Source: a virus. Taken from it: a stretch of 26,430 nucleotides of DNA. Positions 1 through 9,175 of this stretch are shown piece after piece; positions within the stretch are counted from its first letter, which is position 1, and each line of letters begins with the position of its first letter. Both the position numbers and the translations under genes were made by a program. Location of the stretch: positions 1 to 26,430 of IMG/VR virus record IMGVR_UViG_3300028044_000061; one strand, given 5' to 3'. Below the pieces are notes generated by a model that saw nothing but the letters and a program-made list of their open reading frames with translations, made no database searches and was not told the DNA's origin.

Positions 1-491
1 TTTGATTTAATTTTTGCCAATGTACCAATATATTCAGTTTCTGGTAATTTCCACCCCTTATGAGATTTACATCTACCATTTAATACTGAACTAATTTCTG
101 AACTCAGCAAACAATGTTCTCTACAAAATTTGGAAACATTTTCCGATTCATAAATTTCACCATCTGGTGACATTAATCTAAATTTTCTACAATGAGTCAC
201 CTTACCAGATTCTCCGCCCAATGTAGAGTTATAACCATTAACATAAGTATCATAATATTTTATCCAATAAATTTCAACATCATTCATTTTATTTAAGTCA
301 CACTCTTGAATTATTCCCCAAATAAAATTATTTTTACCATATTTATTTAATGCTCTTTGAAATTTAGTTTTATTTATTCTAATATCTTTATAGTGCTTTT
401 TAATTCTCCAATCTAATCCTTTTTTAGTTTGTCCAATATATCGTTTTCCATTAGAAATACAATAGGAACAATAAACAACACCAAGTTCCAT
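1..491 (-). CDS. GIY-YIG homing endonuclease, 3' end outside window
   Basis: The frame is open from an ATG at 491 to the window edge, giving 163 codons; the C-terminus lies outside. The N-terminus shows the GIY-YIG nuclease signature (GVVYCSYC, then GKRYIGQT about 10 residues later). It is followed by the usual NGYNSTLGGESG segment and a C-terminal stretch (FRLMSPDGEIYES to HKGWKL) like the small DNA-binding modules (NUMOD1/IENR type) of free-standing phage endonucleases. Proteins of this family cut a DNA target and spread their own gene by recombination. A late promoter (519-526) and an AAGG ribosome site about 6 nt before the ATG support the start. Composition is AT-rich compared with the neighbouring porin, consistent with a mobile gene. 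The family call is firm; the target is unknown. Confidence 0.85.
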   Translation of the reverse strand, partial: MELGVVYCSYCISNGKRYIGQTKKGLDWRIKKHYKDIRINKTKFQRALNKYGKNNFIWGIIQECDLNKMNDVEIYWIKYYDTYVNGYNSTLGGESGKVTHCRKFRLMSPDGEIYESENVSKFCREHCLLSSEISSVLNGRCKSHKGWKLPETEYIGTLAKIKS

Positions 492-518
492 ATTTAACCT
501 TAAGTTTGGTAGCACTAC

Positions 519-528: not shown

Positions 529-556
529 AAAAAAGGGAGCATATGTGCTCCCTTTT
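529..556 (-). terminator. Intrinsic terminator of the porin gene
   Basis: An 11-bp stem (AAAAGGGAGCA with its complement, 4-nt loop) is followed on the minus strand by six T. It lies 40 nt beyond the porin stop. A run of T on the other side also makes it usable on the plus strand. Confidence 0.85.
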
Positions 557-596: not shown

Positions 597-1481
597 TCAA
601 TTAAACTTGATACCAACGCCAACGGTTCCAGTTACATTGTAACCTTGACCACTGCCGTAGTTATAAGTGACTTTACCAACTTTGGTAGAACCAAAGGTTT
701 CGGCACCAGTTTCGGCAAAAGGAATCTTGGCATCAGCAAACAGAACAACGTTCTTTGCTACTGATACTTCAGCACCAACTACACCGACACCAGCACTCTG
801 ATTGCCACCCACCTGACCACCAGCACCAACATAGAGGTTAGCAGCAGATACTTTAGTTCCATCAGCAAGAGTCCTGCGTGAGAGAGGAATATCAAGGGTA
901 GCAAGACCACCACCAAATACACCACCACTTACATAGTTAGGAGTGGAAGTAAATGTTACATAAGGACGAGCAGATACAGCATACTGATTACCCAAATCAA
1001 GTGCCCTCAAACGACCTTGAAGTGTTACACCAGACTCATATACACGATTACCCAATGGTGTTACACCCGGATAGTTAGCAGCATTACCAGAGAAAGCAAT
1101 ACCACCATAGTTACCAACTCCCAACTGACGGCGCTGTGTGGCAGTTACGGCAGCAACTTCCAGTTGGCTTACACGCTTATTGGTGGCTCCAATTTGAGCA
1201 CGAAGAGATGCAGCAAGTTGTGCGTCTGCTTGTGTGTAAAATTGAGTAATATTATCCAGGCAATGATTTGTCAAAGCAAATACTTCACTGCGAGTTGCAT
1301 CAGCAGCAGGCTTCAGAGTGCCATTAGGATAACCAACAAGACATCCATAACGAGTATTGAGGTTTTGGATTGCTGAGTATGCCCAGTCAGTTGGTTGTAC
1401 ATCTGAGAAGGATGCAGGAGCAGCAAGCACTGGTGCGGTAGTTAATACAACGGCACCGGCAAGAAATGAACGAATAACCAT
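597..1481 (-). CDS. SLH-domain outer-membrane porin-like protein (host-like)
   Basis: 294 aa. A signal peptide (MVIRSFLAGAVVLTTAPVLA, cleavage about residue 20) precedes an S-layer-homology domain at about residues 22-75 (FSDVQPTDWAYSAIQNL, GCLVGYPNGTLKP, TRSEVFALTN). This type anchors cyanobacterial porins to peptidoglycan. A short coiled segment follows (about 80-115), then a glycine-rich region of alternating polar and hydrophobic residues that looks like beta-barrel strands, ending GTVGVGIKFN. Cyanobacterial porins of this family are usually 450-600 aa, so the barrel is short. Its base composition is richer in GC than the flanking endonucleases, which suggests capture from a host. It has both an early and a late promoter. 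The protein probably goes to the host outer membrane; whether it forms a channel, blocks other phages or changes nutrient uptake cannot be told from sequence. Confidence 0.8.
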   Translation of the reverse strand: MVIRSFLAGAVVLTTAPVLAAPASFSDVQPTDWAYSAIQNLNTRYGCLVGYPNGTLKPAADATRSEVFALTNHCLDNITQFYTQADAQLAASLRAQIGATNKRVSQLEVAAVTATQRRQLGVGNYGGIAFSGNAANYPGVTPLGNRVYESGVTLQGRLRALDLGNQYAVSARPYVTFTSTPNYVSGGVFGGGLATLDIPLSRRTLADGTKVSAANLYVGAGGQVGGNQSAGVGVVGAEVSVAKNVVLFADAKIPFAETGAETFGSTKVGKVTYNYGSGQGYNVTGTVGVGIKFN

Positions 1482-1535
1482 AAAAATTTTTTAATGTGAA
1501 ATGTTAATAGAGATTTTTCAGTAATCTCAAGAACC

Positions 1536-1569
1536 TATTTATCATAGCAAAAGAAAGTTTTTATGTCAA
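1536..1569 (-). promoter_or_regulatory. Fused early (TTGACA-17-TATGAT) and late (GATAAATA) promoter
   Basis: On the minus strand TTGACA (1569-1564), a 17-nt spacer and TATGAT (1546-1541) form a near-consensus sigma-70 promoter. The late box GATAAATA (1543-1536) shares the GAT of the -10. It serves the porin gene starting at 1481. The -35 overlaps the stop of the endonuclease gene upstream. Confidence 0.75.
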
Positions 1570-2460
1570 GGGGGGAGGGTGTCTGATGATTATTTTTTTT
1601 ACCCTATACTTTGGAGAATATTCTATTACAAACTCTTTAAATTTAGCACAAAGATTTTGTTGTGATTTTGAATATTTCGTTATACTACAAAAAGTTTTAA
1701 AATCAGTATTTTTATAAATCTCATACCATTCAGTATAAAATTTTATCTTTTGTACTCTTATATTTTTTTTCTTTTCCTTTGTTTTTATTTTTTCATTTTC
1801 TTTCAATTTTTCTCTTAAAAAATAAGCATCAAAATCATATATTGCCCCTTTATTCCATCCAACAGGAATTGTATCATCTTTTTTTATTCTTTTAGTTTGC
1901 CTTAAGTCTAAATTGTGTATTAAAATAGTGCCATATTGTGAATTTTTTTTACCTTGTTGATGCTCAATTTCTTTAAATTTATTCTTTTTCTTTTCTATTG
2001 CTTCTGGTGTTCGTGTAGCAAGATTTGCCTTTATGCAATTTTTTCTCAATACATCTAAAACATATTCTCGTTTTTTCCAATTAGGATCATCCCATCGTTC
2101 TTTACTATTTTTAGATATTTTTTTCCTAGTTACAGACTTAACTGGTAATTTATTTTTAGTAAGTGCTCCCCTCCTATTTGCATCATAAGAAAATTTACCC
2201 CCACAACATTCATTTAAACAATAAAAATCATTTTCCCAGTCCAATCTGAGCAACAAATCAGTTTCTGCCTTTGATACATCTACATCATTATCAAAACACT
2301 CAATAATTACCTTTGAAAAATTTGTAGTCTTCCATTTATTTTTATGAGTTTTTGGAGACCCAGTATATGGATCATTCCAAGGATTATATTTACTGGGACA
2401 TTTTCTTTTCCCAACATAATAATAAAAATCTTTAAAATGTATTACATACAAATAAAACAA
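1561..2460 (-). CDS. GIY-YIG homing endonuclease (Seg-like) with NUMOD3-type repeats
   Basis: About 299 aa. The N-terminus has the GIY-YIG pattern (FYLYVI, then YYVGKRK), followed by NECCGGKFSYDANRRG. Short motifs typical of NUMOD3 or nuclease-associated modules follow (SKNSKERWDDPNWKKR; GKKNSQYGTILIHN; KKDDTIPVGWNKG), as in T4 Seg-type free-standing endonucleases. No ATG precedes the nuclease domain. TTG at 2460, 8 nt after the ribosome site GAGGG (2473-2469), fits best; an in-frame TTG at 2475 lies too close to the promoter. It is very rich in lysine and AT, unlike the porin next to it. The last codons overlap the porin -35 element, so the gene sits exactly against its neighbour's promoter. 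The target is unknown. Confidence 0.8.
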   Translation of the reverse strand: MFYLYVIHFKDFYYYVGKRKCPSKYNPWNDPYTGSPKTHKNKWKTTNFSKVIIECFDNDVDVSKAETDLLLRLDWENDFYCLNECCGGKFSYDANRRGALTKNKLPVKSVTRKKISKNSKERWDDPNWKKREYVLDVLRKNCIKANLATRTPEAIEKKKNKFKEIEHQQGKKNSQYGTILIHNLDLRQTKRIKKDDTIPVGWNKGAIYDFDAYFLREKLKENEKIKTKEKKKNIRVQKIKFYTEWYEIYKNTDFKTFCSITKYSKSQQNLCAKFKEFVIEYSPKYRVKKIIIRHPPPLT

Positions 2461-2487
2461 AATCAGTACCCTCAAATATTATAATAT

Positions 2488-4954: not shown

Positions 4955-5320
4955 TCAAAAAGCAGTTCTCACAACATCTATCAATTCATTTACTGATACT
5001 ACACTGTAACCAGAAACAGCAGTGATTGCCTGATTTGTAGCAGGCACACACCACACAACAACTTTCATATTTCCAACAGTTGCCCATTGAGTATTACTAT
5101 CTTCTCTAGACATATCCCTCGCAGCAAGCTCAAAGAATTTTGATCGTGCTTTTGAACGACAGAGAATTGGAGATGACACATTATCATAAACCAGTGCCAT
5201 TGATGGAGGAACTGTGGTATAAGGGTATGAACCAGAAAAAACTTTGGGTGGTTCATTGGCAAGAGCAGGGGCAACAGACATAGTGACTGCGGCAGCTGCT
5301 GTAAGAATAGATTTAATCAT
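4955..5320 (-). CDS. Secreted small protein with signal peptide
   Basis: 121 aa. A clear signal peptide (MIKSILTAAAAVTMSVAPALA, cut before NEPP) precedes a roughly 100-residue domain with two cysteines (SSPILCRSK and VVWCVP) that could form a disulfide. The strand-rich tail (ITAVSGYSVVSVNELIDVVR) resembles small exported proteins of marine cyanobacteria. I do not recognise the family. It has a consensus early promoter, so it is expected early in infection in the periplasm. Confidence 0.7.
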   Translation of the reverse strand: MIKSILTAAAAVTMSVAPALANEPPKVFSGSYPYTTVPPSMALVYDNVSSPILCRSKARSKFFELAARDMSREDSNTQWATVGNMKVVVWCVPATNQAITAVSGYSVVSVNELIDVVRTAF

Positions 5321-5337
5321 TTTTTAGTAATCGATTA

Positions 5338-5364
5338 TAAAAAAAGAGACCCGTTAAGGTCTCT
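5338..5364 (-). terminator. Intrinsic terminator of the free-standing endonuclease gene
   Basis: On the minus strand AGAGACC-TTAACG-GGTCTCT (perfect 7-bp stem) is followed by seven T. The start site of the early promoter at 5367-5395 would fall in the 5' arm. Confidence 0.85.
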
Positions 5365-5366
5365 GT

Positions 5367-5395
5367 ATTATATCAAATTTGAGAGGTTTTGTCAA
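5367..5395 (-). promoter_or_regulatory. Consensus early promoter TTGACA-17-TATAAT
   Basis: TTGACA (5395-5390), 17-nt spacer and TATAAT (5372-5367) on the minus strand, serving the secreted-protein gene. The -35 overlaps the last codon and stop region of the endonuclease gene. Confidence 0.85.
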
Positions 5396-6078
5396 GAGTG
5401 ATTGAGATCTTTGTGTTTTTTTATAAAATCAACAACTTCTTGGATTGGTAAGTTTTCTAAAAAGTGTTCGGTCATTCCACGACCCATACTCATTTCAGTT
5501 AATGGTGCCTTATATTGTGAGAACTCTTTTAAAACTGCCCTTTCCAAGTTCCAAATATCTATGGACTTTCCAGACCATTCACCAAGAAGTTCTGCTGTTT
5601 CTTTTTTGCGATACAACCAACCTTTATAAGACCTACCAACTTTATACTTACCGTTGTGGAGTTTTATGAAATAGAGTTTATCTGGTCTTTCATTATCTTT
5701 TGGTCTCTGAAATCCAGACCAAGGTTGCCCATTAGCAGTTATTCTTTTTCTTGCTTGAGAATACTTTTCAAGTGTTTCTTGAGTATATGGTTTTGAGTTT
5801 CTTACTCCTTCAGGTCTACCACCAACTCCAGGACACTTTTTACCTTTGTTCCAGGGTGCTTTTTGGTGGGCAGGATTATTTTCTCCAAGTTTTGCTCTCC
5901 TGCGACAACAATAATTGCTATATTTTAACCCAGAAACTAATACTTCTCGTTCACCAGAACATTCACAATATACTTTTATTTTTTCTCTTTTAGTATGTGT
6001 TCTTATTTCTCCTCCATATTCTAAACCTCTATTTTCACAGAGTTCTTTTAGGTCATTAAAAGTATAAGTTCCTTTCAT
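5392..6078 (-). CDS. Free-standing homing endonuclease next to psbA (NUMOD3 plus GIY-YIG-like)
   Basis: 228 aa from the ATG at 6078. A Cys-rich N-terminal half (VYCECSG, YSNYCCRRRAK) is followed by a NUMOD3-like motif (GENNPAHQKAPWNKGKK). A C-terminal domain has the divergent GIY-YIG/T5orf172 pattern (KLYFIKLHNGKYKVGRSYKG, NLERAVLKEF, GMTEHF). A start at 6099 would put the ATG at the late promoter's start site. The ATG at 6078 has GGGAG 7 nt upstream and is preferred. It lies 89 nt downstream of the psbA stop. A free-standing endonuclease that targets a psbA intron site is known in cyanophage S-PM2 (F-CphI); whether this one does the same is inference. Confidence 0.8.
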   Translation of the reverse strand: MKGTYTFNDLKELCENRGLEYGGEIRTHTKREKIKVYCECSGEREVLVSGLKYSNYCCRRRAKLGENNPAHQKAPWNKGKKCPGVGGRPEGVRNSKPYTQETLEKYSQARKRITANGQPWSGFQRPKDNERPDKLYFIKLHNGKYKVGRSYKGWLYRKKETAELLGEWSGKSIDIWNLERAVLKEFSQYKAPLTEMSMGRGMTEHFLENLPIQEVVDFIKKHKDLNHS

Positions 6079-6238: not shown

Positions 6239-9013
6239 CAAATGTGTTATCGTAGTGGTTCTTTATCCTCTACTTCTTACTATCACTAGTAAGTTCAGAC
6301 TATCTCTTCATCCTTATGTTTATTAAGGAGTCGGGCATTCGTGGATGGATTATTGTTGGGACTCACCACCTAGTCGTTAGACCTTTCAGAAAACTTTAAC
6401 CCTTTCTGACTTGGTACGGGATTGTCTCATAGAGAGTTTCCCCGTTTAACCCGATTTTACTTGTATTCATTACTGAATACCAACACCAACAAATCTAGCG
6501 TTGCGTTCATGCCGTTGTTGTTATCGTAAAGGCTCTTTATCCTTTACTTCTTACTGTCGCCAGTAAGACCAGACTATCTCTTCATCCGTTCTGGATGCTG
6601 GGCACTCGTGGGTAGATTATTGTTGGGACTCACTACCTAGTCGTTAGAGCTGCCAAGGAACTTAAACCCTCCTTGGATTGCTACGGGATTGTCTACTTGA
6701 GAGTTTCCCCGTTTAACCCAGTTTCGTCAAGGAATATTCCTATTCCAGGGTGACTACACTATTGAAATCACTTCCATTCCTAAGTTTGCCCTATTTAAAA
6801 TGTCAGCCCAAGTATTAATCACTCTACCTTGATGGTCAAGAATTGATTGATTAAAATTCAGTCCGTTGAGATTAAAAGATGAAACTGCAATCCCCATAGA
6901 GGCACACCAAATACCAATTACTGGCCAGGCAGCAAGGAAGAAGTGTAGTGAACGGGAATTATTAAACGAAGCATACTGAAATATCAAACGTCCAAAATAA
7001 CCATGAGCTGCACATATGTTATACGTTTCTTCTTCTTGTCCAAACTTATATCCATAGTTTTGTGACTCGGTTTCTGTGGTCTCACGAACCAATGAAGAGG
7101 TTACGAGGGAACCCCTATTGTACCTTATTTTCATAAGGAGTGGACTATATCATCAACCTATTTGTATTAGGTTGTCGGGCACTTAAACCTGTTATTAAGG
7201 GGACTAAACCCCTCAGGTAGTCTCTGAACCTTCCTTAGATGTATCTAAGGCTTGGATGCTGATTGCCATATCCATAAAGGACTTAGGGTTCCAGCAGTTC
7301 ACCCGATTTTCACTTTCTGATTACTCAGAAAGGGCACAGTTCCCTATGCATTGCAGAGAATAATGAACCACCGAAGACACCAGCAACACCTAACATATGC
7401 AGAGGATTCATCAGAATATTATGTTCCGCAGAAAATACTAGCATATAATTAAATGTACCAGAGATACCCAAAGGCATCGCATCACTAAAAGAACCTTGAC
7501 CGAAAGGATAGACCAAGAATACAGCAGAGGCAGCAGCAACAGGTGCTGAATACGCAATACAGATCCAAGGACGCATACCTAATCGATAGCTAAGTTCCCA
7601 TTCTCGTCCCATGTAAGCATAGATGCCAATGAGGAAGTGGAATATGATGAGCTGGAACGGGCCCCCGTTGTAGAGGAACTCATCAAGGGAAGCAGCTTCC
7701 CAAATTGGATAGAACGCATAATCCATAAGTTTCCTTACGGTGCTGACTATATCATCACCCTATATTGAGGGTGTCGGGCGCTAATGTCGTATTACAGGTC
7801 ACGCTTGACCAACCGACTAGTCGATGAACCTTCCACAGAAGTATCGTCTGTGGCTTGGCTGCTGATTGCCATATCCATAAAGGACTTAGGGTTCCAGCAG
7901 TTCACCCGATTTGCTTATACCATTACTGATATAAGGCACTCCTATTAAGAATGCAGTCCGATTGCGTTTGAGGAGGGGACGACCGCTCCTGAGATGATGT
8001 TGTTTCCATAGAGTAAAGATCCAGATACGGGTTCTCTTATGCCGTCGCTTGCATCTAACAAACAACCATATCATTAGACTTAGGTTGTTTCTGTTGATTT
8101 TCTTTTGTAAACTGGTTTATTCCTTTGGGATTTCCACCAGCACAAGTTCCATATTTTTTAAGTCTTGCTTCATAACCTAATTTAGACATTTCACTTCTTC
8201 CACCATTTTCTACCCACTCTTTCCAAGTTTGTAGATGAGAAATAGATTCCTTTATTCGTTCTCCTCTTCTTGCTCCCATATAAGGAAGTATTTTTTGTAG
8301 AACAAATAAAACTTTTTCTTTTTCCCCGATGTGAAGTGTATATACTTGTTTTCCGGTTACAGTTTTTCTTGTTGGTGAGAAATAAGATTTATCTAAAAGT
8401 TGACTTAACCTTTCGATAATGTCTTCATCTACCATAGAAATTTTTATAAAAGGTGATGGAGGAGTATTAGAAACTTCATAACGGTCTTTGGAACGATTAT
8501 CTATTCCAAAGTATCCTTCACCTTCTAATAAACCAGCAATCCAAGCAATATCAGTCTCTGTTAAGTTTAGCATTTTGGTTCTCAACTACTGTATTATTTA
8601 TACAACATTTGAGATAAAAATCAACAGTAAATGTGTGGACTATATCTTCACCCTTTAAAATTATTAAAGGGGCTGGGCACTTAAACCTGTTATTAAGGGA
8701 ACTATATCCCTCAGGTAGTCTCTGAACCTTTCTTAGATGTATCTAAGACTTGGCTGCTGATTGCCTTTCGGTTTCCAGCAATTCACCCAGTTTAGTCAAT
8801 ACTCTTACGAGTAAGGGACACCGATTAGTTAATGTCTACGGGAGGAGCTCCAATAAAAGCAATAATGAAGCAGGTTGTAGCAGCGAGTAGGGTTGGAATC
8901 ATAAGAACTCCAAACCAACCAACATATAAACGGTTGTCAGTTGAGGTTACCCATTGGCAGAATTGTTGCCAAGGGTTTGTTGTTTGTCTTTGTAAGGCAA
9001 TTGTAGCAGTCAT
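6167..9013 (-). CDS. psbA: Photosystem II D1 protein, six exons, five group I introns
   Basis: Joining 9013-8832, 8047-7951, 7714-7346, 7113-6767, 6512-6497 and 6238-6167 gives 360 uninterrupted codons, the normal D1 length. D1 sits in the thylakoid membrane, binds the photosystem II reaction-centre cofactors and most ligands of the Mn cluster; phage copies maintain photosynthesis during infection. The Mn-cluster and chlorophyll ligands are present: Asp in FSDAMPLG, Glu and His in AEHNILM, the next His in PLHMLG, His and Glu in MHERNAHN, Asp and Ala in PLDLA. Unusual changes are [15 protein letters not shown] for the usual FQAEHNILMHPFHML and [16 protein letters not shown] for IGIWFTALGVSTMAFN. 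A consensus-like early promoter (9176-9204) and a strong terminator frame it as its own unit. The start at 9013 is by homology; an in-frame ATG at 9059-9061 has a better ribosome site. Confidence 0.95.
6239..6496 (-). ncRNA. Group I intron 5 of psbA (258 nt, no ORF)
   Basis: The boundary is exon ...AACGCT followed by intron AGATTTG..., ending ...CATTTG before CACAAT. P1: exon CAACGCT pairs with GGTGTTG inside the intron, with U-G at the splice site. Core elements are present: ACGGGGAAACTC and ACAATCCCGT (P4 region), CTAACGACTAGG and GATGAAGAGATAGTCTG (P7 halves). ACAA of exon 6 can pair with TTGT near the guide (P10). It is closely related to intron 4. Confidence 0.88.
6497..6512 (-). CDS. 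psbA: psbA exon 5, 16-nt micro-exon
   Basis: 16 nt (GCATGAACGCAACGCT) encode the last base of Met plus HERNA, the conserved Mn-ligand segment His-Glu of D1. Without it the D1 frame and this motif are lost. Its first bases take part in P10 of intron 4 and its last seven in P1 of intron 5. Confidence 0.88.
6513..6766 (-). ncRNA. Group I intron 4 of psbA (254 nt, no ORF)
   Basis: Exon 4 ends ...GAAGTGAT and the intron begins TTCAATAG. P1: GTGAT pairs with GTCAC with U-G at the cut. The intron ends in ACG before GCATGAAC. Core segments match intron 5: ACGGGGAAACTC, ACAATCCCGT, CTAACGACTAGG, GATGAAGAGATAGTCTG. There is no reading frame of note. Confidence 0.88.
6767..7113 (-). CDS. psbA: psbA exon 4
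   Basis: 347 nt encoding [20 protein letters not shown] to LGMEV and two bases of the next Met: the stromal loop and transmembrane helix E region of D1, including the [10 protein letters not shown] quinone-site region. Frame-intact. Confidence 0.95.
7114..7345 (-). ncRNA. Group I intron 3 of psbA (232 nt, no ORF)
   Basis: It follows exon ...GCAATGCAT. P1: GCAT pairs with GTGC (U-G at the cut). It ends in G before GGTTCC, and GTTCC of exon 4 pairs with GGAAC of the intron (P10). Core: GAACTGCTGGAAC, AATCAGCATCCAAG, GTTCAGAGACTACC, GATGATATAGTCC. A stretch of more than 50 nt (7250-7312) is almost identical to intron 2. Confidence 0.9.
7346..7714 (-). CDS. psbA: psbA exon 3
   Basis: 369 nt (123 codons) from [14 protein letters not shown] to GGSLFSAMH: transmembrane helices B to D of D1, including the tyrosine-Z region and the Asp, Glu and His ligands. 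Frame-intact. Confidence 0.95.
7715..7950 (-). ncRNA. Group I intron 2 of psbA (236 nt, no ORF)
   Basis: It follows exon ...GGACTGCAT. P1: GCAT with GTGC, U-G at the cut. It ends in GCG before TTCTATCC. TTCTAT of exon 3 pairs with ATAGGA beside the guide (P10, one wobble). Core: GAACTGCTGGAAC, AATCAGCAGCCAAG, GTTCATCGACTAG, GATGATATAGTC. Confidence 0.9.
7951..8047 (-). CDS. psbA: psbA exon 2
   Basis: 97 nt encoding the end of Ile61, then [20 protein letters not shown] to AIGLH: the lumenal loop after helix A. It is in a different frame from the misleading 62-codon ORF over the same bases. Confidence 0.93.
8055..8573 (-). CDS. Intron-encoded LAGLIDADG homing endonuclease
   Basis: 172 aa from the ATG at 8573. 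A single LAGLIDADG motif ([17 protein letters not shown], residues about 9-25) carries the catalytic acid, so the enzyme probably works as a homodimer. It continues with a strand-rich domain ([40 protein letters not shown]) and a basic tail. A TTG at 8585 is in frame but lies in the predicted hairpin; the ATG has GAG 7 nt upstream. It should cut intronless psbA near the VDI-DG site and spread intron 1. The late promoter at 8595-8602 inside the intron gives it expression independent of psbA. Confidence 0.88.
8580..8614 (-). promoter_or_regulatory. Hairpin masking the endonuclease ribosome site
   Basis: On the minus strand TCTCAA (8614-8609) pairs with TTGAGA (8585-8580), and the inner TGTTGTAT pairs with ATACAGTA around loop AAATA, about 14 bp with one mismatch. 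It covers the GAG ribosome site. The late start near 8588 removes the 5' arm. Confidence 0.65.
8595..8602 (-). promoter_or_regulatory. T4-type late promoter TATAAATA inside intron 1
   Basis: Exact consensus on the minus strand, 22 nt before the ATG of the intron-encoded endonuclease. Confidence 0.78.
8832..9013 (-). CDS. psbA: psbA exon 1
   Basis: 182 nt encoding [20 protein letters not shown] to APPVD and two bases of Ile61: the D1 N-terminus and transmembrane helix A. Frame-intact. The upstream in-frame ATG at 9061 would add 16 residues ([16 protein letters not shown]). Confidence 0.92.
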
Positions 9014-9058
9014 TGAAATTAAAAGGGTAGTTATGAGTTCGGGGGAACGAACTAGTGA

Positions 9059-9175
9059 CATTATTCCTACACCACCCTCCAGTGTAGGTAAAAAGACGTA
9101 TTTGAATTCCCATAGGTCTTGGTTAACGGGAATGTAAGAAATCGTAAAGTTTTATCTTGATTTCCTAACTTATTT
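9059..9175 (-). promoter_or_regulatory. psbA 5' leader with ribosome-site hairpin
   Basis: The leader is about 110 nt. Near its 3' end CCTACAC (9088-9082) pairs with GTGTAGG (9072-9066), leaving GGAGG in the 9-nt loop, 6 nt before an in-frame ATG at 9061. A second stem is possible (ATTCCC with GGGAAT further upstream). No other gene was seen in 9014-9311. Confidence 0.55.

Follow-up and report, generated by a model that had tools for sequence, protein, structure and literature searches.

An SLH-anchored cyanophage protein with a predicted eight-stranded barrel: a candidate for remodelling the surface of infected cells

The stretch of viral DNA analysed here (the window, 26,430 nucleotides) is a fragment of a T4-like cyanophage carrying psbA, tRNAs, lysozymes and a baseplate/tail-fibre connector gene. 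Near its start, on the minus strand, lies a single open reading frame encoding a protein of 294 residues and flanked by two homing endonuclease genes, as the preliminary description had recognized (Table 1). Further along, psbA (6276-8841, minus strand) is split by five group I introns matched by Rfam, and is uninterrupted in the relatives L008 and L011.

Table 1. Positions of the annotated features within the window
Feature	Position	Strand	Basis or remark
Downstream GIY-YIG homing endonuclease	3-515	-	Pfam 1.1e-6; phrog_7168 6e-20; continues past window edge
Terminator-like hairpin GGGAGCA-CATA-TGCTCCC-TTTTTT, 3' of gene	529-552	-	Seen by eye; not in program scan
Coding sequence, 294 aa, SLH-anchored small-barrel outer-membrane protein (predicted)	597-1481	-	Single ORF; stop codon 597-599
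Eight-stranded beta-barrel (predicted), residues 123-293, outer-membrane-type end signal ...GIKF(N)	603-1115	-	Two AlphaFold2 models and VIA-align
Long helix, residues 84-120, linker/coiled-coil type	1122-1232	-	AlphaFold2 model
SLH domain, residues 24-67	1281-1412	-	Pfam PF00395 1.1e-8; invariant columns
Signal sequence MVIRSFLAGAVVLTTAPVLA, about residues 1-21	1419-1481	-	By-eye reading of translation
Short stem-loop GAGATT/AATCTC near leader 5' end	1510-1528	-	Window z -0.66, weak alone
Late-type motif GATAAATA	1536-1543	-	Overlaps -10 box; matches published cyanophage late motif
-10 box TATGAT	1541-1546	-	17-nt spacer; promoter TTGACA-N17-TATGAT, 1569-1541
-35 box TTGACA	1564-1569	-	Contains stop codon of upstream endonuclease
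Upstream homing endonuclease	1561-2475	-	phrog_314, 2.9e-7
psbA group I intron	6276-6506	-	Rfam
psbA group I intron	6550-6806	-	Rfam, barely over threshold
psbA group I intron	7122-7356	-	Rfam
psbA group I intron	7723-7960	-	Rfam
LAGLIDADG ORF, psbA intron region	8055-8585
psbA group I intron	8615-8841	-	Rfam
PhotoRC-II cis-regulatory RNA, upstream of psbA	9053-9147	-

The signal peptide and the SLH anchor that had been proposed for this protein are both present. Cys47 is conserved within the SLH domain, Cys74 lies just beyond it, and the SLH part matches the solved SLH proteins 8bys, 8bz2 and 8bym in phmmer. With regard to the C-terminus, AlphaFold2 run with 22 phage homologues models eight main strands, most of them at block pLDDT 80-93, and a second run, limited to the domain and using 26 homologues, returns the same eight strands (mean pLDDT 79.8, pTM 0.74). 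In the predicted structure these strands are antiparallel and close a barrel, in keeping with the expectation of a barrel-shaped rather than a non-barrel C-terminus. OmpA ranks first for the barrel model in Foldseek, while VIA-align 2 scores OmpW at Z 15.9 (3.2 A, 149 residues) and OmpA at Z 15.4 (2.9 A, 146 residues) for the first model, and at 16.1 and 15.5, respectively, for the second. The nearest solved folds are OmpW, OmpA, PagL and NspA (Z 14-16); absence from these fold lists was never used alone to exclude a named structure family.

Within the near clade, purifying selection acts on the SLH domain, helix and strands (dN/dS 0.13-0.16; 0.14 for the SLH domain and 0.13 for the strands) against 0.33 in the modelled outer loops, and loops L1 and L4 of the modelled barrel concentrate most of the differences and indels among relatives. 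This is the pattern of an outer-membrane barrel with exposed loops, under constraint overall. We are highly confident that the protein is an SLH-anchored, eight-stranded outer-membrane protein.

The preliminary description took it for a host-type porin with a shortened barrel. That reading can be ruled out, since OprB (PF04966) has no match at E <= 1 to the whole protein or to its C-terminus, host forms are far longer, and the barrel belongs to another, eight-stranded family; residues 113-294 have no Pfam match of any family. The cellular SLH relatives examined are porins of 500-900 aa, and those host relatives reached through the SLH part whose frame is complete and carries an outer-membrane-type aromatic end measure 515-926 aa; L186, at 340 aa, is devoid of such an end and looks interrupted. 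Two cyanobacterial SLH porins (L202, L229) lie on contigs filed as a Bifidobacterium breve MAG, a bin that is probably mislabelled or contaminated.

The barrel has cellular kin elsewhere. Its profile is found in none of 400 genomes in the family of a Cyanobium centre genome, that is, the picocyanobacterial host family, and in 13 of the 16 phage records that served as a positive control; across the wider cyanobacterial phylum 23 of 386 genomes gave a match, in most cases to a barrel of about 170 aa standing alone. Profile comparison by hhalign aligns the phage barrel with these stand-alone barrels over the full length (98.7%, E 2.4e-16). Against OMP_b-brl (PF13505, Pfam cut-off 28.7 bits), the cellular homologue L245 scores 40.3 bits and the SLH-less phage relative L115 18.6 bits, the window domain being unmatched. 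From the profile searches and this comparison it follows that both parts fused in the phage protein have relatives in cells, and that one of the two is missing from the host family as surveyed. An initial scan of genomes by strict patterns of the C-terminus had found no cellular relative, and the notion of a phage-only fold was dropped when the more sensitive profile search returned the distant stand-alone homologues. A reverse scan, in which patterns of the cellular barrel proteins were run against viral contigs, found nothing and shows only the limits of short patterns.

A search for homologues in other phages had been suggested at the outset, and it was rewarded: 258 viral-contig stretches encode relatives of the whole protein and 160 encode barrel relatives, of which the best 80 were kept. 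The short form, with its SLH domain and small barrel, is a phage family of at least 80 contigs, and occurs in the isolates S-PM2 (p168) and S-CREM1. Variants are also seen: L115, L125 and L126 encode 188-aa versions of the barrel with a signal sequence and no SLH domain, on phage contigs of up to 277 kb, and L159 and L160 have 387-aa frames containing the barrel plus additional N-terminal sequence.

Some cyanophages, the isolate S-SRM01 included, carry in its place an SLH-OprB porin of 490 aa (PF04966 at 9.3e-15 in S-SRM01). Among 16 records picked for holding one form, several of them fragments, the two never co-occur (13 with the short form only, 3 with the long form only), PF04966 being absent from all 13 of the former and present in all 3 of the latter; mutual exclusion of small barrel and OprB porin across these records is suggestive. 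In a weakly resolved tree of the SLH domain (67 rows, 100 columns), 31 of 32 short forms fall in one supported clade (97/93), with the long-branch L103 beside it, and the phage long porins are nested among those of hosts. The placement of the long form suggests a later, separate capture. Long and short forms can share locus, promoter and leader, which had raised the idea of one gene with swapped barrels, rejected because the SLH tree separates the two; rather than a barrel swap, an exchange of the entire coding region at a constant locus appears more likely.

Transcription is predicted to start from a sigma-70 type promoter overlapped by a late motif, as the claim of early plus late promoters had anticipated; the -35 box begins at position 1569, where the region had been taken to end. 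Scanning the region for raw sigma-70 matches does no better than chance (8 found, 9.0 expected from shuffles) and was not used. The promoter is credible by its recurrence instead: of the 18 nearest relatives (L002-L019), 15 have a promoter of this type with the same 17-nt spacer, 83-97 nt ahead of the start codon, and the overlapping late motif NATAAATA, which is the published cyanophage late motif (PMC2984593), is intact in 9 of these 18. ATAAATA often precedes genes in the window, with 16 of its 21 occurrences (13.1 expected in all) on the gene-bearing minus strand. Expression through the whole infection, as proposed earlier, would be suggested by the promoter alone; overlapping early and late promoters have been described in RB49 and S-PM2 as a supposed middle mode (PMC2984593).

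The leader stem-loop recurs at the same place in relatives with altered stems (mean z -2.0 over 33 leaders). It was rejected as a gene-specific element, because a similar hairpin follows another early-type promoter, upstream of 4955-5320. There (4955-5410, minus strand) a 121-aa exported-looking protein is preceded by TTGACA-17-TATAAT and directly thereafter by a GAGACC...GGGTCTC hairpin with a T run. Such stem-loops may often stand right behind early-type promoters in these phages.

As regards the neighbourhood, a GT25 gene (LPS-type glycosyltransferase) immediately precedes the gene in 24 of the 80 short-form rows, which are those with enough upstream sequence and include several near copies and a cut long form (L046), and in 5 of the 14 long-form rows; most short-form loci have no GT25 neighbour. 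In relatives, GT25 closes a cluster with GT11, GT2, GT4 and UDP-sugar dehydrogenase genes. Downstream of the barrel gene, 43 of 77 loci have a 69-aa gene that weakly matches chlorophyll-binding (Hli-like) proteins. A PstS-like phosphate-binding gene directly follows the long SLH-OprB porin in some cyanophages (L059:11482-12441, L050:11516-12475).

The window itself has no glycosyltransferase match anywhere, and its gene sits at a second address, near a lysozyme, two small genes and tRNAs, as it does in L007, L012, L013, L019 and L020. Although at this second address, the window copy has the promoter and leader that belong to the address beside the glycosyltransferases. The stop codon of the upstream endonuclease (1561-1569 region) lies inside the -35 box, and that of GT25 is placed identically in L004 and others; judging from this arrangement, the endonuclease end seems to have replaced that of the GT25 gene. 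We infer that the endonuclease may have moved the promoter-leader-gene unit.

Taken together, the best reading of these features is an early-made, wall-tethered protein that remodels the cell surface, in superinfection exclusion and/or envelope stabilisation, and not a diffusion porin. It would be a chimera whose signal sequence, SLH domain and helical stalk come from the host and are joined to an OmpW/OmpA-type small barrel. Membrane location, wall binding, timing and purpose are what we infer from the features computed here: after export, the barrel would enter the outer membrane and the SLH domain would grip the peptidoglycan beneath, with early transcription from the sigma-70 promoter and probably a further round from the late motif that overlaps it. 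The exposed loops, along with LPS changes made by the neighbouring glycosyltransferases of relatives, would alter the surface of the infected cell, which would most likely keep other phages, and perhaps grazers, off through the long latent period; the tether may also hold the outer membrane on when the host's genes are no longer expressed.

The S-PM2 homologue reportedly ranks with the first and most plentiful transcripts, and a protective role, in effect the blocking of superinfection, has previously been proposed for it; the T4 r genes (superinfection, lysis inhibition) are reported missing in cyanophages (PMC2984593). A role in superinfection had likewise been among the initial suggestions, and the LPS glycosyltransferase neighbours in relatives would fit it. 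That small barrel and OprB porin exclude each other in the 16 records and can share locus, promoter and leader suggests that the SLH-anchored barrel, and not a pore, is what matters. The case for surface over pore would draw on predicted barrel size, loop variation, LPS neighbours and the filling of the locus by either barrel type. Several points count against surface remodelling, namely that wall binding by only one SLH copy may be weak, that dN/dS in the loops stays below 1, with no sign of an arms race, and that neither the window nor most short-form loci offer the glycosyltransferase neighbour. We therefore hold a role in remodelling against superinfection tentatively, at somewhat under an even chance.

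The protein could instead serve envelope maintenance only, as a replacement tether between outer membrane and wall that limits blebbing after host synthesis stops, any masking being incidental; the logic is that of phage psbA replacing a fast-lost host protein. In this regard, SLH/OprB proteins are reported to hold the outer membrane in Synechocystis, where loss of Slr1908 leads to hypervesiculation (PMC8707739), OmpM is a known SLH tether (PMC10628300), and the locus can be filled by either barrel type. Maintenance alone, however, leaves the variable outer loops and the LPS gene neighbours unexplained, and the SLH-less 188-aa versions show that the tether is dispensable in some phages. We consider maintenance alone unlikely, though more probable than the readings that follow.

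A nutrient or iron porin, that is, an auxiliary metabolic gene as in the S-CREM1 annotation "iron uptake porin", is improbable. The alternative allele is indeed a real OprB porin, and the PstS-like gene follows some long porins, but the C-terminus of the window's protein matches neither OprB nor any other Pfam family and is predicted to form a barrel of only eight strands, unlike the OprB porins of the host. This argues against the change in nutrient entry proposed in the preliminary description, which is borne out only in part, in observation as in interpretation. Solved eight-stranded barrels are narrow or closed, as in OmpA and OmpX; OmpW passes small hydrophobic solutes.

Late loading of the outer membrane or wall, in order to disrupt it or mark it for lysis, is very improbable: the late motif and a tail-lysozyme-domain gene about 2.1 kb off in the window are consistent with it, but the promoter is also early, the S-PM2 homologue is among the earliest transcripts, no spanin-like features were seen, and a wall tether should oppose lysis. 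There is just as slight a chance that the protein is a virion component or a selfish passenger of the endonucleases, as its place between them at the second address with first-address promoter and leader might suggest, given that the S-CREM1 virion proteome of 14 proteins (four structural, nine unknown, one unmatched) leaves the named porin unmentioned (PMC9964418), and that the gene is under purifying selection and widely distributed without endonuclease flanks. The remaining probability falls to other readings.

Returning to surface remodelling, the general idea of an early, abundant and protective protein is already published, and neither a paper describing the small barrel, the chimera, its alternation with OprB porins or the LPS neighbours nor any experiment on the function of this protein or a homologue was found in the open-licence literature. 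We propose, provisionally and as a possibility short of even odds, that cyanophages built their own outer-membrane protein from a host wall anchor and a small barrel absent in hosts, and that this protein and a host porin taken up by phages are interchangeable alleles at a single locus for surface remodelling, beside LPS glycosyltransferases. If so, a lytic phage would rebuild the surface of the cell it infects in its sugars as well as its proteins, and a wall-tethered barrel of phage make would offer a concrete way into the question of how lytic cyanophages protect or reshape such a cell. The domains combined in this family also come from two cellular sources, and in the surveyed host family one of the two is missing.

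The closest known systems are S-PM2 p168, recorded as a "putative S-layer protein" (CAF34233.1, UniProt Q5GQG9), and the S-CREM1 "iron uptake porin" (UYA57656.1), which have the same architecture over about 91% of the length at 41-44% identity. Homology extends over SLH domain, stalk and barrel (tblastn 7e-37 to 8e-41, 91% covered), and the barrel is of the same family; the window clade differs in a shorter loop L3, a usually longer L4, the promoter and the neighbours. Neither public name describes the barrel, and both are misleading and here corrected: an SLH domain alone is no proof of an S-layer lattice, and the predicted outer-membrane barrel speaks against one. No tblastn picked out the T4-GC 425 "S-layer domain protein" (about 190 aa; Sullivan 2010), and it is not claimed as a relative.

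Cyanobacterial SLH/OprB porins of the Slr1841/Slr1908 type and the S-SRM01 porin likewise have a signal sequence, an SLH domain with the same two cysteines, a helical stalk and a C-terminal barrel, but theirs is an OprB barrel (372 profile positions) in a total of about 490-930 aa. In contrast, the stand-alone OMP_b-brl proteins of about 170 aa in other cyanobacteria are homologous to the barrel over its full length and are without SLH domain or stalk. Proteobacterial OmpA and OmpW have an eight-stranded barrel like that of the model, at an identity of only 11-16%. OmpA also pairs a small barrel with a wall-binding domain, which is C-terminal there whereas the SLH domain is N-terminal here; the OmpA domain has no Pfam match in the 294-residue protein, whose C-terminal end is the barrel. 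The tethers OmpM (Veillonella) and SlpA (Deinococcus) likewise combine SLH domain, stalk and outer-membrane barrel, and are, unlike the phage protein, cellular housekeeping proteins; their barrels are much larger than the eight-stranded type.
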